In this document: positions 1-43,372 of the stretch, in pieces
Numbering within the stretch: the first letter of the stretch is position 1
Layout of the letters: each line of letters starts with the position of its first letter
Source of the DNA: Natrialba swarupiae
GTDB lineage: Archaea > Halobacteriota > Halobacteria > Halobacteriales > Natrialbaceae
Length of the DNA: 64,000 bases
NCBI RefSeq assembly: GCF_008245225.1
Contig: NZ_VTAW01000010.1
Coordinates: 62,001-126,000, forward strand
Reading direction: 5' to 3'
Notes under the pieces: model-generated
Database searches by the model: none
The model's input: the letters and a program-made list of their open reading frames with translations, nothing else
What the model was told of the DNA's origin: nothing
Position numbers and translations under genes: made by a program

Positions 1-120
1 GGGGGTCGCACCCTCCGCGCGAGCTCGTCTCGACGGCGAACGCACGAGGAGTTCTGGGTCGACGACGTCGCGCGGATGCAGCCTCTCAGCCGGCGAGAAG
101 CGACAACTGGCAATGATACC
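1..120. other. Window edge, upstream of prkA1; possible tail of an upstream gene
   Basis: All three forward frames are open for most of this stretch, so coding cannot be assigned. One forward frame runs in from the window edge and ends in a TGA at 122-124 that overlaps the ATG of the next gene (ATGA). Such an overlap is common between co-transcribed haloarchaeal genes, so an upstream partial gene is possible. I recognise no protein family in any frame. Confidence 0.25.
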
Positions 121-2193: not shown

Positions 2194-2194
2194 C

Positions 2195-5799: not shown

Positions 5800-5854
5800 C
5801 GAAGCAAACGTCGTTCGCTTCGAACTCACGGAAATCGGTGATTTTCATGAGTAA
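5792..5854 (+). CDS. Possible 20-residue peptide bridging yeaH and spoVR
   Basis: An ATG at 5792 overlaps the yeaH stop. It opens a 20-codon frame that ends in a TAA inside the first codons of spoVR. Its first residues, [10 protein letters not shown], resemble the spoVR N-terminus [11 protein letters not shown]. It may be a translational-coupling leader or the vestige of an older spoVR start left by a frame change. No homologue is known to me. Confidence 0.3.
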
Positions 5855-9447: not shown

Positions 9448-9993
9448 CTACTCGAAGGCGGCCGGATCCCCGCGACGGTAGCGATCGAGCCGTCGGTAGC
9501 CGTGGACTGTGACGTCGTCGTCGAGTTCGACCTCGTAGCGACCGATGATGTCCTGGGTGTCGGGAACCGATCGTCGCTCGACGACCTCGACGATCGCGAG
9601 CCAGCCGTCGTCGGTCGGAACGATCTCGCTGACCCCGTCGAACTCGCGGCCGATGAGATCGCCGGCGCTCGACTGGACGGTCTGTCGAACGGCGAGGACG
9701 CCTTCGATCGTCTCGTCGGCGTCGACGTCCTCGGCGTCGATCGAGTCGGGATCGGTTTTCTCCTCGGCGATCATATCGGGGCCGAGTTCCCTGCTTCGGC
9801 TCTCGCGTTCGGTCTCTGCGTCTTGTTGTTTCTGTTCGCCTTCGTCGGCTGTTTGACTGTCACTCACGGTTGGATCACTCTCGTCGTGTTGGTAGCAAAA
9901 GCCGTCCTCAGCGGCCGGTCGTGAACAGCGCTCACCGTCGGCTGTGAGCGCCTTACACTGGTCGGTCGACCCCTGGGTGTCGGCTTCGGCCAT
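9448..9993 (-). CDS. gvpO: Gas vesicle protein GvpO with N-terminal zinc-finger-like extension
   Basis: The C-terminal 90 residues match haloarchaeal GvpO, including the VVERRSVPDTQDIIGRYEV core and the YRRLDRYRRGD tail. Unlike the roughly 120-residue Halobacterium protein, this 181-residue version starts with a Cys/His segment (CKALTADGERC then CYQH, residues 13-35). It resembles the small zinc-binding modules found on many haloarchaeal proteins. GvpO is needed for gas-vesicle formation and affects gvp expression. It is the third gene of a leftward gvpA-gvpN-gvpO operon, 9 nt after gvpN. Confidence 0.9.
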   Translation of the reverse strand: MAEADTQGSTDQCKALTADGERCSRPAAEDGFCYQHDESDPTVSDSQTADEGEQKQQDAETERESRSRELGPDMIAEEKTDPDSIDAEDVDADETIEGVLAVRQTVQSSAGDLIGREFDGVSEIVPTDDGWLAIVEVVERRSVPDTQDIIGRYEVELDDDVTVHGYRRLDRYRRGDPAAFE

Positions 9994-10002
9994 AGCTGAA
10001 CG

Positions 10003-11022
10003 TCAGATTGTCTCACCGATGCTCGCTCGTAGCTCCTCGATACTGCCGTTCCCGCCGGCGATCTTCGGTGCGAGGACGTCCGTGAAGAGCTCCGTCAGCA
10101 ACCCCTCGTCGATCGCCTCCTCGTCGCCGTCGAACACCGTGATCCCCGTGGCCGCGGTGATCGCCGCCCGCGTTCCGACGACGACGTCGAGTTCGTCGCG
10201 AAGCGCTCGTGTCGCTCGGACGATCGTCTCGACGTCCTCCTCCGGGAGGTCGACGTGCGAGCTGACGATCTCCCGTTCGGTCTCCTCGTCGTAGTAGTCG
10301 ACGTGGACGCCGACGAATCGGTCGAGCAACGCGTCTTGCTGATCGTGGACGCCCGCGTACTCGACGTCGTTCGAGGTGACGATCGCCCGGAACTCGGGGT
10401 GGACGTCGATCGTTCGATCCTCGCCGCGCTTTCCCGGACGCTCGAGGACGCCCTCCTCGAACACCGAGAGCAAGACGTTGTGGGCCGACGGATCGCTTCG
10501 CGAGAACTCGTTGTAGACGAGCGTCGCGCCCTCTCGAACTGCCACGGAGAGGGGGTTGTCGACCCAGCGCTCGCGGACGATTTCGGTCTGTTTGCTGACG
10601 CCGCCGACGAAGCGGTCGTCTTCTTTGTACCGTTCTCCGCCCGCGTGTGCGCCGACGAGCGCCGCGGTGTCGACGGCCTCGTCGCCGTTGAGCCAGACGA
10701 CCGGCCGTCCGCGTTCGGCGGCCGCAGACAGCGCGAGCGCCGTCTTGCCACAGCCGGTGGGGCCGATCAGGTGTACCGGTTGGTCGGCCTCGAGCCAGCC
10801 CGTGATTCGGTCGCGAAGCGAGGCGACCGCGTCGGTCTCGACGAACAGCTCGGGGACGACTTCGTCGGGTTCGGACAGCGGGCTGTCGCCATCGCGGTCG
10901 CGGGCGTTCGCCGCCGCCGTCCGCGCGAGTTCTTTCTTCGCACGGCGACCCGCTTTGCTCGAGCGGTCGCTCCTGATCTTCCGGCCGCGGACTTTGCGCG
11001 TTCGCGAGGAGTCGTCCGCCAT
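10003..11022 (-). CDS. gvpN: Gas vesicle AAA ATPase GvpN
   Basis: A 339-residue MoxR-like AAA+ ATPase. The P-loop GPTGCGKT follows a basic N-terminal segment rich in Arg and Lys. A Walker B-like stretch ATLVYNEFSRSDPSAHN and the sensor motif IVTSNDVEYAG follow. GvpN enhances vesicle growth and is thought to remodel or chaperone the assembling shell. It starts 5 nt after gvpA, which leaves no room for gvpC, the usual gene between them in Halobacterium and Haloferax. Confidence 0.93.
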   Translation of the reverse strand: MADDSSRTRKVRGRKIRSDRSSKAGRRAKKELARTAAANARDRDGDSPLSEPDEVVPELFVETDAVASLRDRITGWLEADQPVHLIGPTGCGKTALALSAAAERGRPVVWLNGDEAVDTAALVGAHAGGERYKEDDRFVGGVSKQTEIVRERWVDNPLSVAVREGATLVYNEFSRSDPSAHNVLLSVFEEGVLERPGKRGEDRTIDVHPEFRAIVTSNDVEYAGVHDQQDALLDRFVGVHVDYYDEETEREIVSSHVDLPEEDVETIVRATRALRDELDVVVGTRAAITAATGITVFDGDEEAIDEGLLTELFTDVLAPKIAGGNGSIEELRASIGETI

Positions 11023-11027
11023 CGGGG

Positions 11028-11315
11028 TTACTCTGAGGCTGACTGGGGTGACGATTCGGGTCGACGCTCGACCTCGAGTTCTTCCAGTTCCTCGAGTTCG
11101 CCCTCGGCGGTGGCTTGCTCAATTTTTGCGATCTCCTCCGCGTAGTGTAAGAAGGTGTCGACGCTGGCGACGACGACGCGGGCTTCGACCGTCAGGAGTT
11201 CGATCCCGACGACCGATACCCGCGCCCAGATGTCGATGACGACGCCTTTGTCGAGGATTCGGTCGAGGACTTCCGCGAGACTCGAGGAATCCGGTCTGCG
11301 CTGTGGTTGTGCCAT
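11028..11315 (-). CDS. gvpA: Gas vesicle major shell protein GvpA
   Basis: The 95-residue product has the canonical GvpA core: [20 protein letters not shown], then [21 protein letters not shown] and an acidic tail. The family usually runs about 75 residues; this one has a longer Glu-rich C-terminus and a short [11 protein letters not shown]-terminus. It is the first gene of the leftward arm, so its promoter must lie in the 268-nt gap up to the SPW gene. No clear TATA box is visible close to the start. Confidence 0.95.
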
Positions 11316-11357
11316 GAGACGTCCGACCGTTCACGACCTGCTCGTAACACGGTGTGC

Positions 11358-11372
11358 ACTGCGACTGCAAGC
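11358..11372. promoter_or_regulatory. 15-nt motif repeated ahead of gvpA and gvpF (copy 1)
   Basis: The 15-mer ACTGCGACTGCAAGC lies 43 nt before the gvpA start codon. It recurs exactly and in the same orientation at 12082-12096, upstream of gvpF. Its position ahead of both divergent gvp arms makes it a candidate shared regulator site. That role is inference. Confidence 0.35.
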
Positions 11373-11422
11373 CGGTTCGACTGCTGTTTCGTCCCTGGGT
11401 TTCGTCGACTGCTGGTTCGACG

Positions 11423-11460
11423 TCGGGTCCCGGACTCGAACACATCGGAACGGGACCCGA
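11423..11460. promoter_or_regulatory. 10-nt perfect inverted repeat
   Basis: TCGGGTCCCG at 11423-11432 and CGGGACCCGA at 11451-11460 are exact reverse complements separated by 18 nt. They lie in the gvpA to SPW gap. They could form a stem-loop or a protein-binding site. Confidence 0.45.
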
Positions 11461-11522
11461 CCGAGGTCCAGCCTCGGACCCACTGGAACGGGACTCGATC
11501 GAGGCCCAGCCTCGAGCGCACC
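11447..11522. repeat. Two tandem 38-nt repeats with compensated hairpin arms
   Basis: Copy 1 (11447-11484) and copy 2 (11485-11522) match at about four of five positions. Each contains a short hairpin: CCGAGG/CCTCGG in copy 1 and TCGAGG/CCTCGA in copy 2. The outer base pair therefore changes on both sides. They sit between gvpA and the SPW gene. Confidence 0.6.
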
Positions 11523-11583
11523 ACCAAAGGGACCCGAGATCTGCCTGCACCAGTTTTAGTCCGGTCGCAGCCGTATCGAGGGT

Positions 11584-11985
11584 ATGAGCGATCGGACGCC
11601 GGCCGCCGGAACGTCGCCGATAGCACAGCGGACGGCCGGACTCGCGGCCGGACTCGGCTTCCTGCTGGTGATCTCGGGGGTGTTTCTCACCGGGTTCGGG
11701 TGGATCATCGTCAACAACGTGATAACCGGCGCGATCGTCGCGGTCGCGGCCGCGTACACCGCGGCGGTTCCGTCGGGTGGCCGTCTCCCGCGTATCGCCC
11801 CACCAGCCGTCGTCGTCCTGGCGGGGTTGTGGGCGATCGCCTCCCCGTTCGTCCTCGGCGTCGAGCAGGGACTGCTGTTCTGGGCCACCGTCGTCCTCGG
11901 CGTTTTGATCGCAGTGCTCGCGCTGGTAAGCATCTACGGGTCCACCCAGCGAACGGACCGAACGGCCGCGGACGTCTCGTCCTGA
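11584..11985 (+). CDS. SPW-type four-helix membrane protein inside the gvp locus
   Basis: The 133-residue protein has about four predicted membrane helices arranged as two pairs. The second pair contains ASPFVLG, the hallmark position of SPW-repeat membrane proteins. It lies between the leftward gvpA arm and the rightward gvpF arm, in the place usually taken by gvpD/gvpE or their promoters. Function is unknown. A link to gas vesicles rests only on location. Confidence 0.6.
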   Translation: MSDRTPAAGTSPIAQRTAGLAAGLGFLLVISGVFLTGFGWIIVNNVITGAIVAVAAAYTAAVPSGGRLPRIAPPAVVVLAGLWAIASPFVLGVEQGLLFWATVVLGVLIAVLALVSIYGSTQRTDRTAADVSS

Positions 11986-12081
11986 AGACCGCGTTCGTCG
12001 ACGTTCGCACTCGAGACCACCACGCGTCGTTCGTGATCACCGCGTCGCCGACAGTCGTCTCGATCCGTGCCGGAAACGGAG

Positions 12082-12096
12082 ACTGCGACTGCAAGC
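12082..12096. promoter_or_regulatory. 15-nt motif repeated ahead of gvpA and gvpF (copy 2)
   Basis: Exact second copy of ACTGCGACTGCAAGC. It is about 150 nt before gvpF in the 262-nt gap that follows the SPW gene. The rest of that gap holds no gene that I can support. Confidence 0.35.
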
Positions 12097-12247
12097 AGTA
12101 CGACCACCGGCCGCGCCGTCGAATCATCGCCGACGAGTTCCTCGAGACCCGCGAGTGCGGTCTCCGGGTTCGGAACCCACACGCTATGATACGGACACGA
12201 TCTAGACGCCTCGAGACGGTCGCCGAACAGCACGCGACGACCGGGGT

Positions 12248-12880
12248 GTGTTCCCGGTGAACAACCGGTACGTCTACGGGGTCGTCGAAGGCGATCCCAT
12301 CGAGTTCGAAACGGACGCCGTCGGCGGTGCGAGCGTCGTCTACACGATTTCACATCGCCGACTCGGCGCGGTCGTCTCCGACATCGACACCACCGATCCC
12401 GAGGAGACCGACGAGGACGCTACACGCCACGACGAGGTGCTTCGACGGATCATGAACGACGGGGACGGTCGAGCGGTCGTCCCGATGCAGTTCGGCATGG
12501 CCTTCGAGAGCGACCGGGCGCTGAAAAACGTCCTCAGGGGCGCACTCCCGGCGTTCAGGCGCGCGCTGAACGACGTCGAGGGTCGCGTCGAACTCGGCGT
12601 CAAGATCGTCCGCGCGGAAGACGCCGACGTCGACGCCGACGCCGTCACAGAGCGCATCGCCGACGAACTCGAGCCGATCGCCGCACAGTCCGTCGGGAAC
12701 GACCTGTTCAGCGACCGCCTCGTGTTGAACCGCTCGTATCTCGTCGATCGCGAGGACCGCGAGGCGTTCGACGAGGCGATCGCCCGACTCGAGGAGGACG
12801 AAGACGACCTCGTCGTCCGCTACACGGGTCCGTTCGCGCCGTACAGCTTCGTCGACGTCACCATCGGAGCCCAGCGATAA
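12248..12880 (+). CDS. gvpF: Gas vesicle protein GvpF
   Basis: This 210-residue GvpF/L-family protein has the usual YVYGVVEGDPIE start, the stretch LGAVVSDIDTTDPEETDED, the VVPMQFGMAFES motif and the terminal RYTGPFAPYSFVDVTIG motif. GvpF is a minor vesicle protein that contacts GvpA during assembly. It opens the rightward F-to-M operon. No ATG is available: start candidates are GTG at 12248 or GTG at 12257, and the second gives an N-terminus closer to the family. The next gene follows by 2 nt. Confidence 0.92.
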   Translation: MFPVNNRYVYGVVEGDPIEFETDAVGGASVVYTISHRRLGAVVSDIDTTDPEETDEDATRHDEVLRRIMNDGDGRAVVPMQFGMAFESDRALKNVLRGALPAFRRALNDVEGRVELGVKIVRAEDADVDADAVTERIADELEPIAAQSVGNDLFSDRLVLNRSYLVDREDREAFDEAIARLEEDEDDLVVRYTGPFAPYSFVDVTIGAQR

Positions 12881-12882
12881 CC

Positions 12883-13137
12883 ATGTTCGTCCTCGACGAC
12901 CTCCTGTTTCGGCCGTTCGTCGGCATCGTCGACGCGATCCACACGATCGCCCTCGACGAGCTGTACGACGTCGACGGCCTCGAGGACGAACTCAAGGAAA
13001 ATCAGTTGTTGTACGAACTCGGCGAGCGCTCCGAGGAGGAGTATCGGCGACGGAAGGCGGAGCTGGAGGACGAACTCGAGATCGCACGCGAGGTCCACGA
13101 ACGGCTCGCGAGCGGTCGCGTGGAGGTGAAATCCTAA
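12883..13137 (+). CDS. gvpG: Gas vesicle protein GvpG
   Basis: The 84-residue product matches GvpG. It has a hydrophobic FVLDDLLFRPFVGIVDAIHT start, then a charged coiled-coil segment with EEEYRRRKAELEDELEIA. It is a small accessory protein of gas-vesicle assembly. Its stop overlaps the next start by one base (TAATG). Confidence 0.92.
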   Translation: MFVLDDLLFRPFVGIVDAIHTIALDELYDVDGLEDELKENQLLYELGERSEEEYRRRKAELEDELEIAREVHERLASGRVEVKS

Positions 13138-13859
13138 TGACCGAAGACGATCACGATCCCGACGACCGACCCGGTGGACCGGGCGATGAGACCGAACGCA
13201 ACCGCGACGAGCAGGACGACGACCACTGGCTGTCGAGCCTGTTGTCGGCGCTCGAGGGACTCGAGGAGCTCTCGGCGTCGAACCGTCGACGAAGCGGGCG
13301 GTCGGTGTTCGACGTCGACCTCTCGGTTCGCGGTGCCGACGAGGCGTCGCGAGGCGAGTCGCGGTCCGGTCGAGACCCACTGACTGGCAGTGAGCGGACG
13401 GGCCACCGTCGAGATCCACACGGTCACGAACCCAGCCGCAGACAGCGGCGAACGCGTTCCTCGAGTCGTCCGTCGGTGGCGACGCGTCGGTACGACGACG
13501 AACTGCTCGTGACGGCGGACGTCGGCGACACCGACCCCGAGGACGTGACGGTGGGGTTCGAGGATGGCACGCTCGTCGTCGGACTCGAGGGTCGCGAACT
13601 CGATCGTATCGAGGTTCCCTGGGGCGATCACACGGCCGAGGCGGGGATCAGAAACGGCGTTCTCACGGTTCGCGTCGAGCCAGGATCGAAAGAGAGGAGA
13701 GACGGCACAGCGGTCGACAGAGCCGACGACAGGGCAGGCGACGCAGGTAGCGACGGGGCAGGCGACGCAGGTAGCGACGGGACAGACGACGCAGGTAGCG
13801 ACGGGACAGACGACGTCGAGGGAGACGAGACCACCGACACGGAGGTCGACGATGAGTGA
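13137..13859 (+). CDS. gvpH: Gas vesicle protein GvpH (Hsp20-like)
   Basis: The 240-residue protein has an acidic, disordered N-terminus. An Hsp20/alpha-crystallin-like domain follows at about residues 115-185 (DDELLVTADVGDTDPEDVTV through [12 protein letters not shown]). The acidic tail holds a tandem repeat of the unit GDAGSDGA/T. GvpH works with GvpI in vesicle maturation. The stop overlaps the next ATG (ATGAGTGA arrangement), implying coupled translation. Confidence 0.88.
   Translation: MTEDDHDPDDRPGGPGDETERNRDEQDDDHWLSSLLSALEGLEELSASNRRRSGRSVFDVDLSVRGADEASRGESRSGRDPLTGSERTGHRRDPHGHEPSRRQRRTRSSSRPSVATRRYDDELLVTADVGDTDPEDVTVGFEDGTLVVGLEGRELDRIEVPWGDHTAEAGIRNGVLTVRVEPGSKERRDGTAVDRADDRAGDAGSDGAGDAGSDGTDDAGSDGTDDVEGDETTDTEVDDE
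13734..13815 (+). repeat. 24-nt tandem repeat inside gvpH
   Basis: Three full 24-nt units (13734-13757, 13758-13781, 13782-13805) and a partial fourth encode GDAGSDGx octapeptides in the tail of GvpH. Units differ by at most a few bases, so copy number may vary between strains. Confidence 0.8.
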
Positions 13860-14748
13860 GTCGTCCGCGACCGAGGACCGAGACGAGTTCGGCGACCTCC
13901 TTGAGGAGGCGACCGAACGTCTTGGAGCGCTCGAGGACCGCCTCGGCGACACGGACGCCCTCGAGGATCTCGAGGACGATACGCTCGAGTCGACGCTCGA
14001 CGATCTGGAGACGCTCGGGACCGTCGCGACGGAGGCGGTGGAGTTGATCGACGCAGTCGACGTCGGAGACCTCCCGGAGGCCGTCGACGGGGACGATCTG
14101 CTCGAGGCGATCGAGATGGGCGAGATTCCGGCGGTGCTCGCGGACGACGATGCGGGCGTCGACGAACTCGTCGAGGTCGACGAACTGTTCCGGGCGATCG
14201 ATCTGCTGTCGGCCTGGAACGCCTCCGATCTCGGCTCGCTCGTCGAGGAGGGCCGCGAACTCGAGGGGGCGGTCGACGATCTGGCAGACGACGGTGACGA
14301 CGCGGGCGTCGTCGAGCAGGCGGCCTCAGAAGTGACGGACGAGAGTGGACTCGGCGGAGACGGAGACCTGATCGACGACGTCGATCCGTCGGACGCACTC
14401 GGCGATATCGACGTGATGGAGGACCCGGAGGCCTACCAGTTCGCCATCCAGCAGGGCGCGATGGAAGGGATCGACGCGTTCCGCGAGGCGTTGCTCGAGA
14501 CCCACGCGACGTTCGAACGCCTGTACGAGTTCAACCGCGAGAAGATGCGCCGTCGAGACACGAGCGCGAACTCTCGAAATCCGACAGCGGCCTCGACGAT
14601 GCCGACCGAACGGGCGGCGGTCGGAAGCGGCGTCAAACACGCGACGGTCCCCCAGTCCGTCCGGCTCTCGACGGCACCCAGCCGGACGCGGATTTACGGA
14701 CAGCGCTTCGAACGCGAGCGCAAGAAACGGAGAAACGACGATGACTGA
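13852..14748 (+). CDS. gvpI: Protein in the gvpI position, large acidic form
   Basis: The 298-residue product lies between gvpH and gvpJ, where gvpI is expected. Its last 55 residues are basic and end in a YGQRFERERKK-type tail that recalls the small basic GvpI. The preceding 240 residues are acidic and helical. They resemble a haloarchaeal domain also seen in proteins unrelated to gas vesicles (segments such as VDVGDLPEAVDGDDLLEAIE and AYQFAIQQGAMEGIDAFREA). I therefore read it as GvpI extended by, or replaced with, a larger fusion. The gene symbol follows from position and tail only. Start and stop overlap both neighbours. Confidence 0.6.
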   Translation: MSESSATEDRDEFGDLLEEATERLGALEDRLGDTDALEDLEDDTLESTLDDLETLGTVATEAVELIDAVDVGDLPEAVDGDDLLEAIEMGEIPAVLADDDAGVDELVEVDELFRAIDLLSAWNASDLGSLVEEGRELEGAVDDLADDGDDAGVVEQAASEVTDESGLGGDGDLIDDVDPSDALGDIDVMEDPEAYQFAIQQGAMEGIDAFREALLETHATFERLYEFNREKMRRRDTSANSRNPTAASTMPTERAAVGSGVKHATVPQSVRLSTAPSRTRIYGQRFERERKKRRNDDD

Positions 14749-14849
14749 CCCACCACCGCGACCGACTCGAACCAGGCGCACCGTTCGGAGAACCACCGAT
14801 CTCCCCCCTCGAACGACGAAGCGAACCACGAACAGCGGGGGGATCCGAT
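14741..14849 (+). other. Out-of-frame N-terminal segment of gvpJ (frameshift at G6)
   Basis: The ATG at 14741 overlaps the gvpI stop, as all other starts in this operon do. It encodes MTDPPPRPTRTRRTVRRTTD, a typical GvpJ-like beginning. The frame is lost at the G6 run at 14837-14842: with five Gs it would continue directly into the gvpJ frame. As given, this frame ends at 14923. Confidence 0.6.
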
Positions 14850-15527
14850 GTGCTGGTCGCGTCCCCAACTCGGCGTTCGTCGGCGAGCCAGCCATCGGCG
14901 GAGGTGGTCGGCGTGGTCGATGACTTCCAGCCGAGTCGCCAGAAGACGGACCTCGCCGAAGTCGTCGAGATGCTACTCGACAAAGGAATCGTCATCAACG
15001 CCGACATCGCCGTCTCGATCGGCGACACGCAGCTACTCGGCGTGCAGGTTCGGGCCGCGATCGCCTCGTTCGAAACCGCCGCCAAGTACGGCCTCGAGTT
15101 CCCCGAAGGGACCGACATGCGCCGGGTCGCGGCGGCGGTCGATGAGCCCGAACTCGCCGAAACGGAACGGCCGAGGCCGCCGATCGACGCGACGAGGGGC
15201 GTAAACGTCACGCCCGACGAGCGGTACGCGGACGAAACCCGGATCGAGGACGACCCCGACTCGAGCGAGAACGCGGAGGAAGCGACCGGCGGTGACGAGA
15301 GCCGCGGCGACGAGGCGAGTTTCGAACACCCGAACCGCGGAACCGAACGCCTCGGCGCGCGACCGGACCCCGAGCGGCCGACGAGCGGCGGCCTCGAGAT
15401 GATCGGCGGAGACGGCGACAGCGACGAGGCCGACGACCCCGACTTGGAGGACACCGGCGCGGACGACTCCGCCGAGGGCGAGTCGGGCGACGAAACGGCG
15501 ACGGCGGAAACGGAGGGGAACACGTGA
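14850..15527 (+). CDS. gvpJ: Gas vesicle protein GvpJ (start uncertain)
   Basis: The 225-residue open frame contains the GvpA/J/M core, from [20 protein letters not shown] through the [18 protein letters not shown] helix. A long acidic C-terminal tail follows. GvpJ is a minor shell paralogue needed for nucleation. The only in-frame start candidates are GTGs, the first at 14850. The G-rich run just upstream could act as a ribosome-binding site, or it could be the place of a one-base insertion that separates this frame from the ATG at 14741. The stop overlaps the gvpK start by 4 nt. Confidence 0.88.
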
Positions 15528-15868
15528 CACAGATCGACGTCGGCGACGGGGAGAGCGCACGCGACGGGCTCGTTACCCTGGTCGTCACCGTCGTGGAGAT
15601 CCTGATCGCCGCCTTAGAGCGAGAGGCGGTTCGACGCATGGAGTCGGGTGAGCTCTCCGACGAGGAGATCGAACGTCTCGGGAGCCAACTCGCCCGGATC
15701 GAAGCCGAGATCGATCAGCTCAAACGCGACGAGGGAATCGAGGAGAGCGTCGACGATCTCCACGGCGACCTCGACGGTCTCGTCTCGGACGCGATCGAGC
15801 AGCTTCGCGGTGATCCAGACGTCGCGTCGGCACCCGGCTACTCCGTGTTCGGGGGTGATAGCGAGTGA
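15524..15868 (+). CDS. gvpK: Gas vesicle protein GvpK
   Basis: The 114-residue protein matches GvpK: the [20 protein letters not shown] helix and [19 protein letters not shown] are characteristic. It starts with GTG, overlaps gvpJ by 4 nt and overlaps gvpL by 4 nt. It is required for vesicle formation in model haloarchaea. Its molecular role is not settled. Confidence 0.92.
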
Positions 15869-16809
15869 CCGACGACGGCGTGCCCGACCGGGAGACGGAG
15901 CTGAACGCCCCGAATCAGCAGTCACCGTCCGCCGCGACCGAAGCCGACGGCCCACCGGAGATCGACGAGGGTCGGTACCTCTACTGTCTCGTTCGGGCGA
16001 ACGAGGGACCGTCCGTCGGCGAGAGCCTCGAGTCGACAGGCGTCGACGACGAACCGGTCTCGGTCGTCGTCGAGAACGGCATCGGTGCCGTCCTCCACAG
16101 CTGTGACGGCCTCTACGACTCGTCGGATATAGCGCAGATCAGACGCTGGCTCGTCCGCCACCAGCTGGTCGTCGACCGGGCCGGAGAAGCGTTCGGGACG
16201 CCGATTCCGTTCCAGTTCGACACGATCATCCGCGGGGACGACGAGGCCGTCCGAACCTGGCTCGACGAGGAGTCAGAGACCCTCGAGCGAGCGCTCTCGG
16301 AACTCGCCGGTCACTGGGAGTACCGCGTCGAAGTCGTCGAGACGGACCCGATCGACGACAACGAGTTGCTCGATCGCGACGACCGGCTCCAGGAGCTTCG
16401 CGACCGGATCGACGACGCCGGCGAGGGGACGGCACACCTGCTCGAGACGCAGTTCGACCGTCGCCTCTCGGAGTTGCGAGCGGCCCGTCGGGAATCGCTT
16501 TCGGACGACGTGAGAGAGCGCCTGACGGCCGAGGCACGCGAAGTGCACGCACTCGAGCGCTCGCCCACCGCGTCGCTCTCGACGGAGCTGGGAGACGAAG
16601 CCGATTCGGATACCGACCAGAACGGCGGTGAAACGCTCTGTCGACTCACCCTGCTCGCCCACGAAGACAACGAGGGCGCGATCGGTGCGATTCTCGAGGA
16701 GGTGGCCTCGACCGACGGACTCGAGGTCAGGTTCACCGGGCCGTGGCCACCGTACACCTTCGCCCCGGAGTTGGGTGATGGCGAATCGACCGGCTCTTCA
16801 CAATCATGA
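15865..16809 (+). CDS. gvpL: Gas vesicle protein GvpL
   Basis: This 314-residue GvpF/L-family member has the [11 protein letters not shown] start of the domain at about residue 38, after a disordered N-terminus. The [20 protein letters not shown] motif follows, and the protein ends with [15 protein letters not shown]. GvpL interacts with most accessory Gvps and is thought to act as an assembly platform. It starts with GTG and overlaps both neighbours by 4 nt. Confidence 0.92.
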
Positions 16810-17120
16810 AACCGAGAAAAGACGACGAGGCGCTCGTCGACGTACTCGACGTTCTGCTCAGGGACGGTGCGATCCTCCGGGCGGACGTGATCGTCTCGGT
16901 CGCGGACGTCCCGCTCGTCGGGATCAAACTCACCGCGGCGATCGCCGGGATGAAGACGATGACCGAGTACGGCCTCTTCGAGGAGTGGGACGTCGAACGA
17001 CGCCGATCTTCGATAACCCGCCGCCAGCACGCGCCGCGTCGCTCGAGTGAGGATGGGGTCGGTCGGTCGAGGCCGAGTGAACGCGAAACGGTTGGAGGAC
17101 AGAAATCGAGCGATTCGTGA
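16806..17120 (+). CDS. gvpM: Gas vesicle protein GvpM
   Basis: The 104-residue product has the GvpA-like core: ALVDVLDVLLRDGAILRADV, then VGIKLTAAIAGMKTMTEYG. A basic tail follows. GvpM is aggregation-prone and helps nucleate the shell with GvpJ and GvpL. It is the last gene of the rightward gvp operon. Confidence 0.92.
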   Translation: MKPRKDDEALVDVLDVLLRDGAILRADVIVSVADVPLVGIKLTAAIAGMKTMTEYGLFEEWDVERRRSSITRRQHAPRRSSEDGVGRSRPSERETVGGQKSSDS

Positions 17121-34483: not shown

Positions 34484-34565
34484 ATACGGTTTACTGTAAG
34501 TCATTTCCGGTGCAACCGCCGCACGGGTCGCGGTTGCACCGGTACATCGTTACAGCAGACCGTAT
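34484..34565. repeat. Repeat family C, copy C4
   Basis: The clearest copy. Outer inverted repeats ATACGGTTTACTGTAA and TTACAGCAGACCGTAT frame an inner 12-bp stem CCGGTGCAACCG/CGGTTGCACCGG. The last base is the final A of the mrp stop codon (TGATACGG on the minus strand). Confidence 0.9.
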
Positions 34566-35656
34566 CAGTCCTCGAGTTCGGTCGGGAGCGTGTCGTCGGG
34601 GGTGTCGGAGGTGTTCTCGTCGACGGTTCGACGGTTGATCTCGCCGATGCGGTTGGAGATTTCGGCGACGAGGTCCTCGACGGGCTCCTGGGCCGCGCTC
34701 TCGTCGTTCTTGACGATCGCGCCCTCGCTACCATCGGCGCCGAAGTCCGGGTGGATCGGAATCTGACCGAGAAGCGGCACGTCGTACTTGTCGACGATCT
34801 GTTGGGCGCCGTCGGTGCCGAACAGGCTGTACTCCTTGCCGGTGTCCGGCGCGATGAACGTGCTCATGTTCTCGACGATTCCCAGCACCGGCGTGTTGTG
34901 TTTGTTGAACATCTGGATGCCCTTGCGGGTGTCGTCGAGTGCCATCTCCTGTGGCGTCGTGACGACGACCGATCCGGTGACGGGCATCGACTGCAGGAGG
35001 TTCAACGTCGCGTCGCCGGTCCCTGGCGGGAGGTCGACGATGAGGTAGTCGAGTCGACCCCACTCGACGCCCTCCAAGAACTTCATCATGAACTTGTTGA
35101 CCATCGGTCCACGGAGGATCGCGGGATCGTCTTCGTCTTCCATCATGATCCCCATGCTGATGACGCGGACGCCGTCGGATCGCGGCGGGACGATGTCTTC
35201 GTTGGGGGTGACCCCAGGATCGCTCTCGACCGGCAGGATTCGAGGAATGTTCGGCCCGTGAATATCCGCATCGAGAATGCCGACCATCGCGCCGCGTTTC
35301 TCGAGTCCCGCGGCGAGGTTGGCCGCGACCGTCGTCTTACCGACGCCGCCTTTGCCGGAGGCGACCGCGATCACGTTGCGTACCCGCGGGAGCACTTCGT
35401 CGTCGAACCCGTGTTCGGTCCCGACGTGTGCTCGTAGGTCCGCCTCGAGGCCGGCGTTGTCGACGACCTCCCGGATCCGGTTGCCGATCTCCATCTCGGA
35501 GGGCGCGTACGGAGCGTTGAACGCGAGCGAGATCCGTGCGGTCTCGTCGTCGATGGTGACGTCGTTGACGAGTCCGAGCGAGACGATATCCTCGCCGATG
35601 TCCGGATCTTCGATCCCCTCGAGTTCGATTTTGAGTTCGTGTTCTGTAATACTCAT
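34565..35656 (-). CDS. Mrp/ApbC family Fe-S cluster carrier ATPase
   Basis: The 363-residue protein has an N-terminal DUF59/MIP18-like domain (about residues 1-85) fused to a ParA-like ATPase. The deviant Walker A is VASGKGGVGKTTVAANLA and the Walker B is DYLIVDLPPGTGD. In this family the protein binds and transfers Fe-S clusters to apoproteins. The usual paired Cys motif of the C-terminal region is not obvious, as in many haloarchaeal members. The TGA stop is fused to repeat C4. Confidence 0.9.
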   Translation of the reverse strand: MSITEHELKIELEGIEDPDIGEDIVSLGLVNDVTIDDETARISLAFNAPYAPSEMEIGNRIREVVDNAGLEADLRAHVGTEHGFDDEVLPRVRNVIAVASGKGGVGKTTVAANLAAGLEKRGAMVGILDADIHGPNIPRILPVESDPGVTPNEDIVPPRSDGVRVISMGIMMEDEDDPAILRGPMVNKFMMKFLEGVEWGRLDYLIVDLPPGTGDATLNLLQSMPVTGSVVVTTPQEMALDDTRKGIQMFNKHNTPVLGIVENMSTFIAPDTGKEYSLFGTDGAQQIVDKYDVPLLGQIPIHPDFGADGSEGAIVKNDESAAQEPVEDLVAEISNRIGEINRRTVDENTSDTPDDTLPTELED

Positions 35657-35803: not shown

Positions 35804-36106
35804 CTACAGTCCGGGCGAACCGATGGGTTCGGGCAGTCGCCCGAAGAATACCAGGCCGATAACGAGGGTCATGACCAGCATGGAAACCCACATCGTCGTC
35901 GTCAGTCCGACGAGATACGTGACCCCGAGGAGCCCGGTTTTCGTATCGCGAGGCGTTCCGACGAACCACGCGGTGACCATGACGTAGATGGGGACGAGAA
36001 CGACCCCGAAGATGAGCCAAGAGCCGGTGTTGGGGAAGCCGGTGACCCCTTCGGTGGCCTCGTAGCCGTGATACAGGACGATCGCGAGCGCGGACGACGG
36101 AGACAT
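35804..36106 (-). CDS. Small membrane protein, paralogue 1 of the NrfD operon
   Basis: The 100-residue protein with about three membrane helices is clearly related to the next upstream gene. Shared stretches include LIFGV-LVP-YVM--AWFVG and the ending LPEPIGS-G. It lies 197 nt downstream of that paralogue, in the same direction. It is likely an extra membrane subunit of the ferredoxin-NrfD complex. Confidence 0.7.
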   Translation of the reverse strand: MSPSSALAIVLYHGYEATEGVTGFPNTGSWLIFGVVLVPIYVMVTAWFVGTPRDTKTGLLGVTYLVGLTTTMWVSMLVMTLVIGLVFFGRLPEPIGSPGL

Positions 36107-36303
36107 GCGTCTACAGCTAGTGCCACCACCGAACACGGTCGTGGTACTGCCTGCACTCGCATGGTCGGATTCGGATGACAGGGAACCACCGCATCAGCGT
36201 CGATGTCAAGCGATCGGTGTGACTCGAGAGACGGCAGCGTGAGTGGAGACGAGCCTCGTGACTCGACTGATCGAGACGGAAAACGAGAACGCGGTCGGTC
36301 GGG

Positions 36304-36618
36304 TTACGGTCCGGTGGAACCGATGGGTTCGGGAAGTCCGCCGTAGAAGACGACGGCGATGATCATCGTCAGGATGAACATCCCGATCCACATCTGGGCC
36401 GTAATTCCGACCAGGTAGCCGACGCCCATCAGGCCGGTCTTGGAGTTACGTGGCTCGCCGACGAACCACGCGATAATCATGACGTAGACCGGAACCAGGA
36501 TGACGCCGAAGATGAGGTAGGTTCCGATGTTCGGGAAGCCGGTGAGTCCCTCAGTTCCGCCTTCTCCGTGATAGAGGACCCACGAGAGCGCGCTCATGAG
36601 CGTCGCCGGGGCGATCAT
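36304..36618 (-). CDS. Small membrane protein, paralogue 2 of the NrfD operon
   Basis: The 104-residue protein with about three helices has a conserved VLYHGEGGTEGLTGFPNIG N-terminal region, also present in paralogue 1. The start overlaps the nrfD-like stop by 4 nt, so it is co-translated with the membrane subunit. I do not recognise a named family. The position corresponds to small accessory subunits of NrfD-type quinone oxidoreductases. Confidence 0.72.
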   Translation of the reverse strand: MIAPATLMSALSWVLYHGEGGTEGLTGFPNIGTYLIFGVILVPVYVMIIAWFVGEPRNSKTGLMGVGYLVGITAQMWIGMFILTMIIAVVFYGGLPEPIGSTGP

Positions 36619-38021
36619 GCTTCCACCTCCGGTTCGCCCGCGTGCTCATCCGATGGCTCGTGCTCGCCGTGGCCGTGATCGCCACGGAGATGTTCGACTG
36701 CGTGGAGTTCGACGACCGGAACGAGCTTCGAGATGACGAGGAAGAACAACACCACCATTCCGATGGTTCCAGCCAGCGAGAGGAGTTCGATCGCACTCGG
36801 GAAGTAGTCCCCCGGCGTCGCCTCGTAGATGCTAAACGTCGGATACCAGAACCCGGAGAGAACGAAGTACGTCTTCTCGACGAGTGTCGCGATCAGCACG
36901 AGCACGCCCGCCACGATCGCTCGCCCTTTGCTAAACAGCGATGGACGAAGGACCGTCGCGAAGATGAACGCGAGGACGCTGACGACCATCAGCATCGGGA
37001 CGACGTACATCGGGTGCGAGAACTTCGAGTCGGTCGCAGTCGCGTGGTCGACCGTCGGCGCGAAGCTGCCCGCGGTGAGCTGTTGGAGCTGAAGCCAGAG
37101 GAACAGCAGGCAGAAGAAGCCGAGCCACAGCAAGAGCCCACGGAAGATGTCGTCGGTGATGATGTGATCCCAGTCGTAGGCGCGACGGAAGGCGTACGAA
37201 ACCAGGATAACGCCGCTGATCGCCGACGTCAGCGCGATCGTCAGGAACTGTGGACCCTGAATGGCCCCGAACCAGCTCGGATAGTTCGGCAGGACGGCGA
37301 ACAGCCACGGAATCACACCGCCGTGGAGCAACAGCGGCGCCATGATGATGATCGCCAGCGCGACCCACCAGACCATCCGCTCGATGACCTCGTCTTCTTT
37401 CTCGGTGTAACCGAGGGTCAACATATCGTAGACTTTCCCGTAAAGGTCGGGAAACTGGACGCCACCGACCTGTGGCGCAAACGACGGGAGCTGACCACGA
37501 AGTCGAGAGATATCGTATCGGAGCGTCAGCCCGAGGTAGGTCGCCGTCAGCACGAAGTAGGCCGTAATGACCGTCACGTCCCACACCAGCGGCGAGTTGT
37601 TCACCGTGATGTGGTAGTGACCGAGGACGCTCGTGACCATCCGGTCGGGTCGACCCATGTGGACGAGAATGTAGAAGCCGGCCGCCGAGAGGCCAGCCAG
37701 CGTCAACATCTCCGCGAGACGAGCGACCGGCATGTACCGATCCATGCCGAGCAGTCGAACGGCCGCCGAGAGGATGATCCCGCCGTGGGCGATCCCGACC
37801 CACCAGATGAACGCGCCGATGTACAGCCCCCAGGTGACGCCGCCACCGCTGCCCCAGTCGGAGAGGCCGGTGACGACCATCCCGTCTCTGAGCTGAATCA
37901 TCCATCCGACCAGGAACGCTCCGAGAGCGAGCGCACAGACGCCAAAGAGGACGAAGTACTTCTTGCTGAATCCCTCGGTCGGTCGGAGGATGTCTTCTTC
38001 GGTGGGTGTCTTCGTGCTCAT
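36615..38021 (-). CDS. NrfD/PsrC-type membrane subunit
   Basis: The 468-residue protein with about ten membrane helices matches the large NrfD class (PsrC, ActC). It has a long N-terminal helix, the GLYIGAFIWWVGIAHGGIIL motif and the late YVVPMLMVVSVLAFIFATVL helix. These subunits bind menaquinone and pass electrons to or from an attached Fe-S subunit. The His-rich tail (HGHGEH) is a local feature. It overlaps both neighbours by 4 nt. Confidence 0.88.
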   Translation of the reverse strand: MSTKTPTEEDILRPTEGFSKKYFVLFGVCALALGAFLVGWMIQLRDGMVVTGLSDWGSGGGVTWGLYIGAFIWWVGIAHGGIILSAAVRLLGMDRYMPVARLAEMLTLAGLSAAGFYILVHMGRPDRMVTSVLGHYHITVNNSPLVWDVTVITAYFVLTATYLGLTLRYDISRLRGQLPSFAPQVGGVQFPDLYGKVYDMLTLGYTEKEDEVIERMVWWVALAIIIMAPLLLHGGVIPWLFAVLPNYPSWFGAIQGPQFLTIALTSAISGVILVSYAFRRAYDWDHIITDDIFRGLLLWLGFFCLLFLWLQLQQLTAGSFAPTVDHATATDSKFSHPMYVVPMLMVVSVLAFIFATVLRPSLFSKGRAIVAGVLVLIATLVEKTYFVLSGFWYPTFSIYEATPGDYFPSAIELLSLAGTIGMVVLFFLVISKLVPVVELHAVEHLRGDHGHGEHEPSDEHAGEPEVEA

Positions 38022-39649
38022 AGCGACACCCCGGCGTCACCGACGGTCCCCTCGTCGAGGACTTCTTTGCGGTCGTCGGTCTGACCGATGTCGTCGTAGG
38101 CGACCGGACCGTCGACCTGTTCGGCGTTCGGTCCGGGGTTCTGTCCGATATACGTGACGTTCGGATTCGTACCGATATCCTCGAGCAGCTTGAACGACGA
38201 CCCGGCGACCCCAGCGTACTGACGGAGTCGAAGGTTGGCGTCGTCTTCGCTCCCGTCACCGAGTTGTAACTCGGCCAGTACGTCCTCGCTCTCGAGATCG
38301 ACGTACTCTTCGAGCGCGTCGACGGATTCGAGGACCGTCTGTTCTTGCTCGAGGATGGTGTCGTTCGTCTCCTCGGGCGGCTCTTCTCTGTCGCTGACGA
38401 TCTCGATCGCCTTCATGATGCTGACGAGTTCTCGATCGAGGTCGTCGTCTTCGTCATCCTCGAACGCCTCGATCGCCGACTCGAGATCGTCGTCTTCGCT
38501 GAGAATGCCGTCGATCGCCTCCGGCGACGGGACGTTGCGGACGATGTCGATAATTGCTCGGCTTTTGCTCGGATACTCGCCGTGCTGGTGCGCGTCGCTG
38601 CGTTCGTCGTTGACGTCGCCGAACTGGATCGCGTCCGGTGGACAGGCTTCCTCACAGGCCGTCGTTCCGATGCGGTCGTCGCCCATCAGGCCGTCCTGTC
38701 GGGTCGGACACATCGTACACTTGCTCATGACGCCACGGGGTGCGCGACTGTCGACCCATCGACCGCGCTCGTCCATCATGTGATCGCCTTCTTCGCCGGG
38801 TTCGACACCCATCTGATCGGCGATTTCTTCTTCGGTGGCTTCCTGGGGTTCGTCCCACTGGAAGTAGTTGACGCCGTACGGACAGGCGACCTGACAGTAC
38901 CGACAGCCGATACAGACGTCGTAATCCGTCAGAACGAGACCGTCCTTTTCACGGGTGTGGCGCGCCGTCGTCGGACAGACCTTCTCACAGGGTGCGTCTG
39001 TACAGTGTTGACACGGTCGGACGAGCATGTTGTAGCCGTCCATCCCGCCTCGAACGTCGGGGGCCGGCGAGCCGCCTTCGGTGGTGTCGTCCTCGAACGC
39101 GAGGACGTACATCCAGTTGACGCCCTGGTCGGTCTGGTTCTCTTGCTGACAGGCAGTCACGCAGGAGAGACAGCCGTCACACCGCTCGAGGTCGATCGTC
39201 ATCCCCCACTGGGTGCCGTCCGGTTCTTCGACCTGCTGTTGGGTATCCGCGACTGCCGCCTCGGGTTCGCCGTCGTCGACGGTGCCCCACGCACCGAGTC
39301 CGACGGCCGCCGCGCCGGCCCCCATCTTCTTCATCGCGTCGCGCCGACTGTCTTCGCCGTCACCCTCGAACTTCGAGAGCATCCGGGAAACCGTCCCTTC
39401 CTCCGCAGCCTGCATTTCCTCGTAGGCTTCCTCCGTCGGGCGGTTGTCCTCGCCGAACTCCTCCATCACGTCGTCGTGATACATCTCGTGGAACTCGGCT
39501 TCGGACAGCTCGCCTTTGGTGACGCGCATCGCGTCTTTGGCCATCTCCATACCGAGGTCGCTGTCGTACTCGGTATCGTCGAGCATCGTCTCGAGCTCTC
39601 CCTCCCACTCCTCGCCGAGCGGGTGGAACGATTCGTCGTCCGCACTCAT
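38018..39649 (-). CDS. Four-cluster ferredoxin subunit with internal Tat-like signal
   Basis: The 543-residue protein carries four [4Fe-4S] motifs, namely CDGCLSCVTAC from residue 157, CQHCTDAPCEKVCP, CIGCRYCQVACP and CTMC with a later CEEACP. This is the PsrB/ActB pattern. An RRDAMKKMGAGAAAVGLGAW segment at residues 102-121 follows a 100-residue acidic lead. It looks like the extended Tat signal known in molybdopterin/Fe-S proteins, so the subunit may face outside. The C-terminal 180 residues are acidic. It is the first gene of a four-gene operon; no molybdopterin catalytic subunit is present. Confidence 0.85.
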   Translation of the reverse strand: MSADDESFHPLGEEWEGELETMLDDTEYDSDLGMEMAKDAMRVTKGELSEAEFHEMYHDDVMEEFGEDNRPTEEAYEEMQAAEEGTVSRMLSKFEGDGEDSRRDAMKKMGAGAAAVGLGAWGTVDDGEPEAAVADTQQQVEEPDGTQWGMTIDLERCDGCLSCVTACQQENQTDQGVNWMYVLAFEDDTTEGGSPAPDVRGGMDGYNMLVRPCQHCTDAPCEKVCPTTARHTREKDGLVLTDYDVCIGCRYCQVACPYGVNYFQWDEPQEATEEEIADQMGVEPGEEGDHMMDERGRWVDSRAPRGVMSKCTMCPTRQDGLMGDDRIGTTACEEACPPDAIQFGDVNDERSDAHQHGEYPSKSRAIIDIVRNVPSPEAIDGILSEDDDLESAIEAFEDDEDDDLDRELVSIMKAIEIVSDREEPPEETNDTILEQEQTVLESVDALEEYVDLESEDVLAELQLGDGSEDDANLRLRQYAGVAGSSFKLLEDIGTNPNVTYIGQNPGPNAEQVDGPVAYDDIGQTDDRKEVLDEGTVGDAGVSL

Positions 39650-39844: not shown

Positions 39845-40519
39845 TCAGTTCGTCGGCAACTGTCCGTCGAGCGGTTCGTCGTCCTCGAGGCCCGGAAGAT
39901 CCTCGACGAACCGTTTGACGATCGACTCCTCCGCCCGGTGAAGCGTCTCGCTACAGGTCGATTTGGCGATCCCGAGATGCTCTGCGAGTTCGGTCAGCGA
40001 ACACCGGCGTGGCGTATCGTAGTAGCCTTGTTCGACGGCCGCGACGACGACTTCGAGCTGGCGCTCAGAGAGGACCTGACTCTCGTGTAACCGGTCGCTG
40101 ACGTTCTCGATTCGATACTGGAGACCGAACCGCTCGAGTTGCTCGGCGAGTTCCGCCAGGCGTTCTCGAGAGCCGGTGACGTCGATCGTCGCCTCGCCGT
40201 CCTGGATCTCGACGGGGAGTTCGATCGGCATTCCCGATTCTCGCGAGGAGAACAACAGAAGCGGTGCCGTCGTCTCGAAGTGGATCGTCGCCTCGTTGTC
40301 GCTCCACTCGACGAGCGTCAACTCCGTGATCTGGGGATGGTCGGTGATGTCGTCGACGATATCAGTGACGTTCCGTCCGGTAATCCGAACCAGTGCGAAG
40401 CCGGATTCGGAGCCGGGAACCGCGGCCAGCACGCGAAACGTGGCGTCCGGATACGCCACGGACACCTGCTGGATCCAGACCTGTTCGGGCATCGTCACCG
40501 TGAGTGTCGCCTGGGCCAT
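39845..40519 (-). CDS. HTH-10 (Bat/DmsR-type) transcriptional regulator
   Basis: The 224-residue regulator ends in an HTH-10 domain: LSERQLEVVVAAVEQGYYDT, then LTELAEHLGIAKSTCSETLH. Its N-terminal sensor-like domain resembles those of DmsR-type activators. DmsR controls DMSO/TMAO reductase operons in Halobacterium and sits next to them. Here the regulator lies directly upstream of the ferredoxin-NrfD operon in the same direction. The start at 40519 was chosen because the longer frame has no homology. Confidence 0.84.
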   Translation of the reverse strand: MAQATLTVTMPEQVWIQQVSVAYPDATFRVLAAVPGSESGFALVRITGRNVTDIVDDITDHPQITELTLVEWSDNEATIHFETTAPLLLFSSRESGMPIELPVEIQDGEATIDVTGSRERLAELAEQLERFGLQYRIENVSDRLHESQVLSERQLEVVVAAVEQGYYDTPRRCSLTELAEHLGIAKSTCSETLHRAEESIVKRFVEDLPGLEDDEPLDGQLPTN

Positions 40520-40562
40520 TGGAGGTGAACACCTACTGTCTAAGGCTGAGAACCCACAGTTA

Positions 40563-40574
40563 CGAATATATTCG
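40563..40574. promoter_or_regulatory. Perfect 12-nt palindrome with TATA core
   Basis: CGAATATATTCG lies in the divergent gap between the HTH-10 gene and the DUF2249 gene. It is 44 nt from the regulator start and 82 nt from the DUF2249 start. Being symmetric, it could serve as a TATA box in either direction or as an operator. Confidence 0.4.
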
Positions 40575-40655
40575 CCGTCATTCCTACCGACTGGGAACCC
40601 GTCACGAACCGATTCGGCCGAAGATCCAACTGGCGACGGAACCGTTCGCTCGCTC

Positions 40656-40883
40656 ATGACGTCTCCAGCCGCCGACCGAACGCTCGACGTCAGAGAGATC
40701 GATGGCCCACCGTTCGACGACATCGTCGCCGCGCTCGACGACCTTGCGGACGACGAACGGCTCGAGTTGATCGCCCGGTTCGAGCCGGCTCCGCTCTACG
40801 GCGACCTCGACGGCCGGAGATTCGACCACGACAGCGAGAAACGAGACGACGGGACGTGGCACGTCCTCCTCGAACACGCTTAG
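40656..40883 (+). CDS. DUF2249-like small protein
   Basis: The 75-residue protein has the pattern of the DUF2249 domain: an early LDVREIDGPPFDDIVAALDD strand-helix, then ERLELIARFEPAPLYGDL. Such proteins often neighbour denitrification and other anaerobic-respiration genes. That agrees with the redox genes on both sides. Function is not established. Confidence 0.75.
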   Translation: MTSPAADRTLDVREIDGPPFDDIVAALDDLADDERLELIARFEPAPLYGDLDGRRFDHDSEKRDDGTWHVLLEHA

Positions 40884-42102: not shown

Positions 42103-42202
42103 CGCCTACCCCGCCAATTCTGACGAATCCGACGAGTAGAGGCACTCACTCGAGTGGAAGAACGGACGGGTTTGATAAGGTTTGGAAGATGTTGTTCGGT
42201 GT

Positions 42203-43372
42203 ATGTACAACGAGATACTCGTCCCGACGGATGGGAGCGACGTAGCCGAGCGAGCCGGAACCGTCGCCGTTCAAATGGCCGAACTCTTCGGCGCGGATCT
42301 GACCGTCGTCTCCGTTCGAGAGCCGGGCACCGAAGAGCAAGCAGAACGCGCCGTGGGAGATATCGAGGAGGCCGCGATCGAAGCCGGACTCTCCCCTCAA
42401 ACCGAGATTATCGACGACGAGAAATCGGCGATCCACCAGGCGATCATCGACTACGCCGAGGACCACGGCGTCGACGTCGTCGTGATGGGGACCCACGGCC
42501 GGACGGGCATCAGTCGATTCCTGCTCGGGAGCGTAGCCGAACAGTTCCTTCAGGAGTCGCCGGTTCCAGTCGTGACCATTCACGAGGATACCGTCATCGA
42601 CTTCGAGATAGACAACGTCCTCGTTCCGACCGACGGGAGTGAGGGGAGCGAGGCCGCTACGGAGCACGCGATCGATCTCGTGACCGAAACCGGTGGGACG
42701 ATCCACGCGCTCTACGTCACCTCCGGACCCGAAGCGGAATCGTCGCCGACCGACGACGTACGTGATCGGGGCGAAGCCGCCGGTGTGGAGGTCGTTTCGG
42801 CTACACGAAGCGGTCGACCACACGAGGCGATCGCCGGGTACACGGCAGAGGCTGAGATCGACGTGGTCGTGATGGGGACCCACGGCCGCACCGGTCTCAG
42901 ACGATACCTGCTCGGGAGCGTCACAGAACGCACAGTTCGGTTCTCACCAGTCCCAGTCGTCTCCGTGAAACCGGAGTCGGCCGGCGCCACCGTCGAGTTC
43001 CTCGACTACGAAGTCATAGCGGACAACGACTGGTCGCTGGAGGACGACGACCTCTTCGAGAAGGCGGCCGAGGCCGACCTGACGGCGGAGACCCACGGGA
43101 CGATGACTGTCGAAAAAGGGGAGTACATCCTCGAGGCGGCCGAGGCCGAAGGCTACGACTGGCCGTTCTTCTGTCGAGGTGGTGGCTGTATCAACTGTGC
43201 AGCGACACTGGTTGATGGTGAGGTCGAGATGGAGGTTAACCGTAGCCTCTCCGACGAGGAGGTAGACGAGATGAACCTGCGGTTGACCTGCGTCGCCACG
43301 CCGACGACTGACGAAGTAAAGCTGGTCTACAACGCCAAACAGCTCGACCAGCTCCGGGACCGAATTCTCTAG
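42203..43372 (+). CDS. Usp-Usp-[2Fe-2S] ferredoxin fusion protein
   Basis: The 389-residue protein has two universal-stress-protein domains (about residues 1-130 and 135-262). Each has the ATP-binding G-x2-G-x9-G-S pattern, seen as MGTHGRTG, then LLGSV. The last 125 residues form a plant-type [2Fe-2S] ferredoxin with the acidic N-terminal insert typical of haloferredoxin. Cluster cysteines are at about 324, 329, 332 and 363 (CRGGGCINC, then LTCV). The two folds are normally separate proteins. The frame is continuous, so this is a true fusion. The TAG stop lies in repeat A4. Confidence 0.88.
   Translation: MYNEILVPTDGSDVAERAGTVAVQMAELFGADLTVVSVREPGTEEQAERAVGDIEEAAIEAGLSPQTEIIDDEKSAIHQAIIDYAEDHGVDVVVMGTHGRTGISRFLLGSVAEQFLQESPVPVVTIHEDTVIDFEIDNVLVPTDGSEGSEAATEHAIDLVTETGGTIHALYVTSGPEAESSPTDDVRDRGEAAGVEVVSATRSGRPHEAIAGYTAEAEIDVVVMGTHGRTGLRRYLLGSVTERTVRFSPVPVVSVKPESAGATVEFLDYEVIADNDWSLEDDDLFEKAAEADLTAETHGTMTVEKGEYILEAAEAEGYDWPFFCRGGGCINCAATLVDGEVEMEVNRSLSDEEVDEMNLRLTCVATPTTDEVKLVYNAKQLDQLRDRIL

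Follow-up and report, generated by a model that had tools for sequence, protein, structure and literature searches.

A haem-free Fe-S/NrfD gene cluster of Natrialba swarupiae as a probable menaquinol:halocyanin oxidoreductase

The stretch of DNA analysed here (64,000 nucleotides from the haloarchaeon Natrialba swarupiae, contig NZ_VTAW01000010.1, positions 62,001 to 126,000; hereafter the window) carries on its minus strand a gene cluster for an iron-sulfur (Fe-S) protein, an NrfD-type membrane protein and two small membrane proteins, which probably encodes a compact, haem-free menaquinol:halocyanin oxidoreductase standing in for the cytochrome bc complex. This reading draws on the gene content, the conserved residues, a distribution complementary to that of cytochrome b, and the adjacency of halocyanin genes in relatives. 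We lean, only somewhat beyond an even chance, towards the broader proposal that a haem-free complex III with no Q-cycle serves the respiration of an entire archaeal family and, as separate cases, of some Natronomonas, Halovenus and two other lineages; in it an Fe-S/NrfD pair would hand menaquinol electrons directly to a blue-copper protein.

According to passages of PMC8305020 (2021), complex III is missing from approximately one third of haloarchaea, Natrialbales above all, and the electron flow in them was described as unresolved; a passage of PMC3403918 (2012) says the same of Natrialba magadii, Haloterrigena turkmenica and Natronomonas pharaonis. The module described below may solve this puzzle and, if our reading is true, would provide a named gene cluster for the quinol-to-halocyanin step that those passages leave open. 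It would also give a measure of how far alternative complex III lends itself to reduction. In that case we know of no functional substitute for cytochrome bc that is smaller than the Fe-S/NrfD pair. No paper joining halocyanin with NrfD was found in the open-licence PMC literature.

Distribution of the module and its halocyanin neighbours

Relatives of the cluster are represented by 56 named Fe-S + NrfD modules, obtained from the best 80 of 534 loci in a search from an 18-sequence Fe-S protein alignment. Presence and absence were counted in an initial set of 194 genomes from the class and in a later, overlapping one of 391, with related genomes taken as they stand, ancestry uncorrected, so that Fisher p-values for these counts serve as description only. 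Among the 391 genomes, the module is present and cytochrome b (PF00033) absent in 96, neither is found in 3, both occur in 40, and 252 have cytochrome b only; that is, the module is present in 96/99 cytochrome-b-less genomes versus 40/292 cytochrome-b-bearing ones. The corresponding four counts are 80, 0, 12 and 9 in the family of the window (f1), and 16, 3, 28 and 243 outside it, while the hand-counted sample of 194 gave 50, 2, 16 and 126, with NrfD relatives in 97 and the small membrane protein in 66 of its genomes. In g33, a genus whose sequences resemble Natronomonas, the cytochrome-b-less genomes carry the module in six cases out of six and the cytochrome-b-bearing ones in one of five. 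Lineages that have the module and lack cytochrome b comprise at least family f1, part of g33, g52, g57 and family f11. Two of the three genomes devoid of both (G007, G093 and G365) are only 2.1-2.2 Mb in size and, at a guess, perhaps belong to anaerobes. In N. swarupiae itself the cytochrome b search gave no matches, with a positive control in Haloferax volcanii. Its genome encodes three COX2 proteins, all with CuA ligands, so these oxidases need a one-electron donor.

A flank check in relatives for halocyanin genes, proposed in an earlier reading of the window made from its sequence only, turned out positive: halocyanin is the next gene upstream, on the same strand, in 16 of the 56 named modules (54 of which had an upstream gene within the stretch), versus two of the 621 remaining gene positions of those loci. 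Halocyanins were recognized by motif in 14 of the 16 cases and by BLAST likeness only in the short frames of L188 and L214; all ten of those tested match Pfam Copper-bind, and all four tested pass the cut-off of NCBIfam TIGR03102. On the Fe-S tree the adjacency implies five gains or losses, at least three of them forced by well-supported branches. Together with the 96/99 count, it supports the suggestion, also made in the sequence-only reading, of a quinol:acceptor oxidoreductase that may feed a blue-copper protein. The genome of N. swarupiae encodes halocyanin domains on six contigs, including five such domains in a single frame of 642 amino acids (aa) (G000:C16:81594-83078). In the module-upstream halocyanins of L176 to L244 the usual axial-ligand residue, read by eye, is Met, Gln or His, and this variation may tune the halocyanin potential towards menaquinol.

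The gene cluster and its conserved residues

The features of the cluster, all on the minus strand of the window, are as follows (Tat, twin-arginine translocation; TM, transmembrane; ORF, open reading frame):

38018..39649 (-), Fe-S subunit, 543 aa, with four cubane-type cysteine motifs and an internal Tat-like signal (ORF; Pfam PF16947, 1.8e-34; Fer4)
39431..39625 (-), Ferredoxin_N domain, Fe-S subunit residues 9-73, preceding the Tat-like motif (Pfam, 1.8e-34)
39326..39349 (-), twin-arginine motif SRRDAMKK, Fe-S subunit residues 101-108, ahead of a hydrophobic stretch
39149..39181 (-), Fe-S subunit cysteine motif C157-C160-C163-C167 (alignment cysteine counts)
38975..39013 (-), Fe-S subunit cysteine motif C213-C216-C221-C225 (alignment cysteine counts)
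38882..38914 (-), Fe-S subunit cysteine motif C246-C249-C252-C256, two of whose ligands flank Tyr251, a placement shared by Y113 of QrcC
38642..38719 (-), Fe-S subunit cysteine motif C311-C314-C332-C336, with Asp for C314 in 3/42 rows
36615..38021 (-), NrfD-type quinone-reactive membrane subunit, 468 aa (Pfam PF03916, 3.3e-21)
37659..37661 (-), NrfD His121, aligned with ActC His139 (quinol protonation position)
36304..36618 (-), small two-TM membrane protein (sTM) 1, 104 aa (ORF; TM prediction; AF2 pLDDT 84.8)
35804..36106 (-), small two-TM membrane protein 2, 100 aa, ATG start, 65% identical to protein 1
34565..35656 (-), Mrp/ApbC-type Fe-S cluster carrier, 363 aa, conserved end of the cluster (Pfam PF10609, 4.3e-90)
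39845..40723 (-), HTH_10/BAT-type regulator upstream of the Fe-S gene (Pfam PF04967, 6e-20)

The four-cluster Fe-S protein, the NrfD protein and the two paralogous small membrane proteins are where the sequence-only reading had placed them, and no molybdopterin gene is adjacent, as it had said; it had overlooked the Mrp/ApbC gene, and the GTG at 36136 that it listed as the start of the second small membrane gene is probably wrong, the ATG at 36106 (100 aa) being likelier. The Fe-S and NrfD genes overlap by a few bases at 38018/38021, as do the NrfD and first sTM genes at 36615/36618, and a gap of about 200 bp separates the second small membrane protein gene from the first. Each small protein has two predicted TM segments, and the genome holds no further copies beyond the cluster. 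Among the 56 named modules the small membrane protein was called in 44 and the Mrp/ApbC gene, downstream, in 51, the gene caller having missed them in the other 12 and 5, respectively. The HTH_10/BAT-type gene, a probable regulator of the cluster, has counterparts at most three genes upstream in 23/56; a sigma-70 and terminator scan returned nothing of use for an archaeon.

In the Fe-S subunit, 15 of the 16 cysteines in the four motifs are invariant across the 42 alignable relatives, the remaining one, C314, being Cys in 39 and Asp in three, and Tyr251 is present in 42/42. The profile of this protein matches ArrB, ActB and PsrB in the PDB. A Tat-like signal after a lead of about 100 residues, recognized already in the sequence-only reading, is confirmed: the twin arginine of SRRDAMKKM is present in 39/39 relatives having the region (four of 43 rows lack it and were omitted, namely one 81-aa N-domain, one 199-aa protein and two molybdenum (Mo)-linked proteins) and is invariant in alignment A2 of 35 rows. 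The Mo-adjacent Fe-S proteins of L119 and L124 begin at the first cluster, with neither N-domain nor Tat motif, and the possession of both by the module protein suggests that it is built for export in its own right. In L119 the Ferredoxin_N domain stands alone as an 81-aa protein next to the Mo operon (gene starting at 4334), hence it may be an assembly domain able to act in trans. Divergent relatives in L121 and L123 have a lipobox-like cysteine, read by eye, after the Tat motif.

The quinol-site residues H121, S143 and D148 of the NrfD subunit align with H139, S164 and D169 of ActC. In a tree of 59 NrfD rows, 53 form a clade with 100/100 support, apart from the Mo-linked and divergent NrfDs; the His, Ser and Asp are conserved in all 53, and the six NrfDs outside have Asp or Ser at the position of His121. 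The clade divides into a branch of 12, to which we return below, and a branch of 41 (support 88/86), which holds the window together with Halovenus, Natronomonas-like and Natrialbaceae rows, and among the Natrialbaceae are nested most of the NrfD copies without an Fe-S neighbour.

Three such copies, 87, 79 and 74% identical to the window's NrfD and without an adjacent Fe-S gene, lie on other contigs of this genome. In 11 Natrialbaceae loci (L007:9192-11974 and ten more) an FAD/NAD(P)H oxidoreductase gene precedes the Fe-S-less NrfD copy, and a possible product of this pair is an NAD(P)H:menaquinone enzyme. A second Fe-S paralogue (61%) is encoded without NrfD on a fifth contig (L008:9532-11184, contig C12); such NrfD-less paralogues are followed by a conserved membrane protein of 65-67 aa in 14/21 named loci, and might pair with the solo NrfDs. 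The Fe-S proteins of L109, L184, L193, L196 and L211 are 738-776 aa long, and in them a long insertion precedes the conserved C-terminal motif. Divergent Fe-S/NrfD pairs adjoin a Tat lipoprotein (L121:9880-11787, L138:9975-11606) whose likeness to the haem-b subunit of type II DMSO reductases is faint and, at E 0.00095, falls short of the cut-off.

Elsewhere in the window, a single 396-aa frame (42182-43372, plus strand) joins two universal-stress-protein domains to a haloarchaeal [2Fe-2S] ferredoxin (Usp-Usp-Fer). The genes at 9448-17120 presumably form a gas-vesicle cluster, and those at 1-7874 resemble what we take to be a PrkA/YeaH/SpoVR-type operon.

Proposed mechanism and alternatives

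We infer the activity of the complex, its direction, its partner and any energy coupling or proton pumping from the observations above. Menaquinol would be oxidized in NrfD near the outer face, at the site of His121, Ser143 and Asp148 that corresponds to the quinol site of ActC; the electrons would then cross the four Fe-S clusters of the Tat-exported subunit and pass to a membrane-anchored halocyanin and from it to the CuA-type oxidases. The sTM proteins could be structural helpers, like the two-helix ActD, and the Mrp/ApbC protein and the Ferredoxin_N domain may serve in cluster loading ahead of Tat export. For the N-domain this role is a guess, prompted by the proximity of the Mrp gene and by the fact that the domain precedes the Tat motif and in L119 stands as a protein of its own.

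Several observations weigh against a menaquinol:halocyanin oxidoreductase replacing cytochrome bc. No halocyanin gene adjoins the module in the window, in most Natrialbaceae modules or in 40 of the 56 named modules. The genomes counted are not independent events, and 40 of them, 28 outside f1, have both the module and cytochrome b, so the module is not solely a cytochrome b replacement; in the NrfD tree the 12 rows of genera outside f1 that possess cytochrome b make up a branch of their own. ActC Asp253 is replaced by Leu240 in the window's NrfD, and Arg395, a proposed gatekeeper said to be conserved in all NrfDs, by Lys383. The NrfD profile has four matches in the PDB, all to ActC of alternative complex III (2e-27 to 4e-24), but a control profile of two Mo-linked haloarchaeal NrfDs matches the same four chains; the ActC likeness is therefore a property of the wider NrfD group, and the ActC-only match was rejected as proof. 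The predicted structure of the Fe-S subunit is poor (pLDDT 61.9), its fold merely repeating what the sequence had indicated. Finally, PMC6176080 reports on natronoarchaea that have neither complex III nor an alternative to it and rely on quinol oxidases.

The likeliest alternative is a respiratory side branch, serving another outside acceptor or stress, in which case the match with cytochrome b loss would reflect shared ancestry within Natrialbaceae. The 40 genomes with both systems, the members from Halobacterium and Halorubrum on a separate branch, and the confinement of halocyanin adjacency to some lineages are all consistent with it. However, outside the family the module is present in 16/19 genomes without cytochrome b versus 28/271 with it, the same contrast recurs within g33, and no other candidate was seen to fill the quinol-to-halocyanin gap, which makes this explanation unlikely. 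The opposite direction of electron flow, from an outside donor to the menaquinone pool, finds a precedent in QrcABCD, whose QrcCD, an Fe-S/NrfD pair, reduces menaquinone and depends on Tyr113 and Ser138, according to a part of PMC13059093; Tyr251 and Ser143 of the module match these two essential residues. Against this stand the lack of recognized donor enzymes, the absence of the c-type haem motif CXXCH from the 22 called genes of window 28-52 kb and from 529 gene rows around the 56 named modules, and a distribution that tracks cytochrome b loss, and we regard the reverse reaction as improbable.

Slightly less probable still is that the cluster supplies the membrane and Fe-S subunits of a respiratory molybdoenzyme with its catalytic subunit encoded elsewhere. 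Such enzymes are the usual partners of NrfD/Fe-S pairs, and some haloarchaeal relatives (L119, L124) do adjoin a Mo subunit. Nevertheless, a PF00384 search of the genome found one protein, its single Mo-bisPGD enzyme, a formate dehydrogenase alpha by score (733.7 versus a cut-off of 666.25), which has no Tat signal at its start and no NrfD gene beside it, so that the distant molybdopterin partner named by the sequence-only reading as a possible refutation is unlikely in this genome. Moreover, the Tat motif borne by 39/39 module Fe-S proteins is absent from the two Mo-linked ones examined, and the module NrfDs stand in their 53-row clade apart from the Mo-linked NrfDs. A reading as DMSO or polysulfide reductase was rejected for want of a Mo partner and because the Fe-S protein bears its own Tat motif. 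In a portion of PMC8966722, 'polysulfide reductase NrfD' is tabulated for sulfur respiration in haloarchaea; in some haloarchaeal genomes this label may denote an aerobic chain.

Comparison with known systems

Alternative complex III is composed of ActABCDEF and occurs in Rhodothermus, Flavobacterium and chloroflexi. The module resembles it in that its NrfD profile matches ActC and its Fe-S profile the Fe-S half of ActB (4e-38), in the Tat-exported Fe-S subunit and in being found where cytochrome bc is absent. The two-helix small subunit recalls ActD, as described in part of PMC5928083, but the sTM, despite its two TM segments, has no sequence or fold match to any PDB chain. Unlike that complex, the module has a 543-aa Fe-S protein without the molybdopterin-like B1 domain of ActB, with no Mo-like gene adjacent and with a Ferredoxin_N domain; it has no c-type cytochromes (ActA, ActE) and no ActF, the second NrfD, in the cluster, and the three extra NrfDs elsewhere in the genome keep the quinol-site residues, unlike ActF. 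Assignment to alternative complex III was therefore rejected, since the molybdopterin-like domain, the c-type cytochromes and ActF are missing. The sequence-only reading, which had put the cluster closer to alternative complex III than to DMSO reductase, is supported in that ordering, although the ActC likeness is not module-specific and the defining features are lacking.

As in QrcCD of QrcABCD, a minimal Fe-S + NrfD redox pair is seen, with Tyr251 and Ser143 conserved as equivalents of Tyr113 and Ser138. The module differs in having neither the QrcA cytochrome nor QrcB, in His121 where QrcD has Asp120, and in the opposite direction proposed for it. The combination of a four-cluster Fe-S protein with NrfD is shared with the PsrBC/DmsBC anchors of complex iron-sulfur molybdoenzymes (Psr, Dms, Arr); unlike these, the module has no catalytic molybdopterin A subunit, and the Tat signal is on the Fe-S subunit itself. 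Like NrfCD-type pairs, the module has a 16-Cys Fe-S protein adjoining NrfD. The haloarchaeal cytochrome bc complex (petABC/petABD), absent from this genome and made of unrelated proteins, would nonetheless share with the module the reaction proposed here, from quinol to halocyanin.

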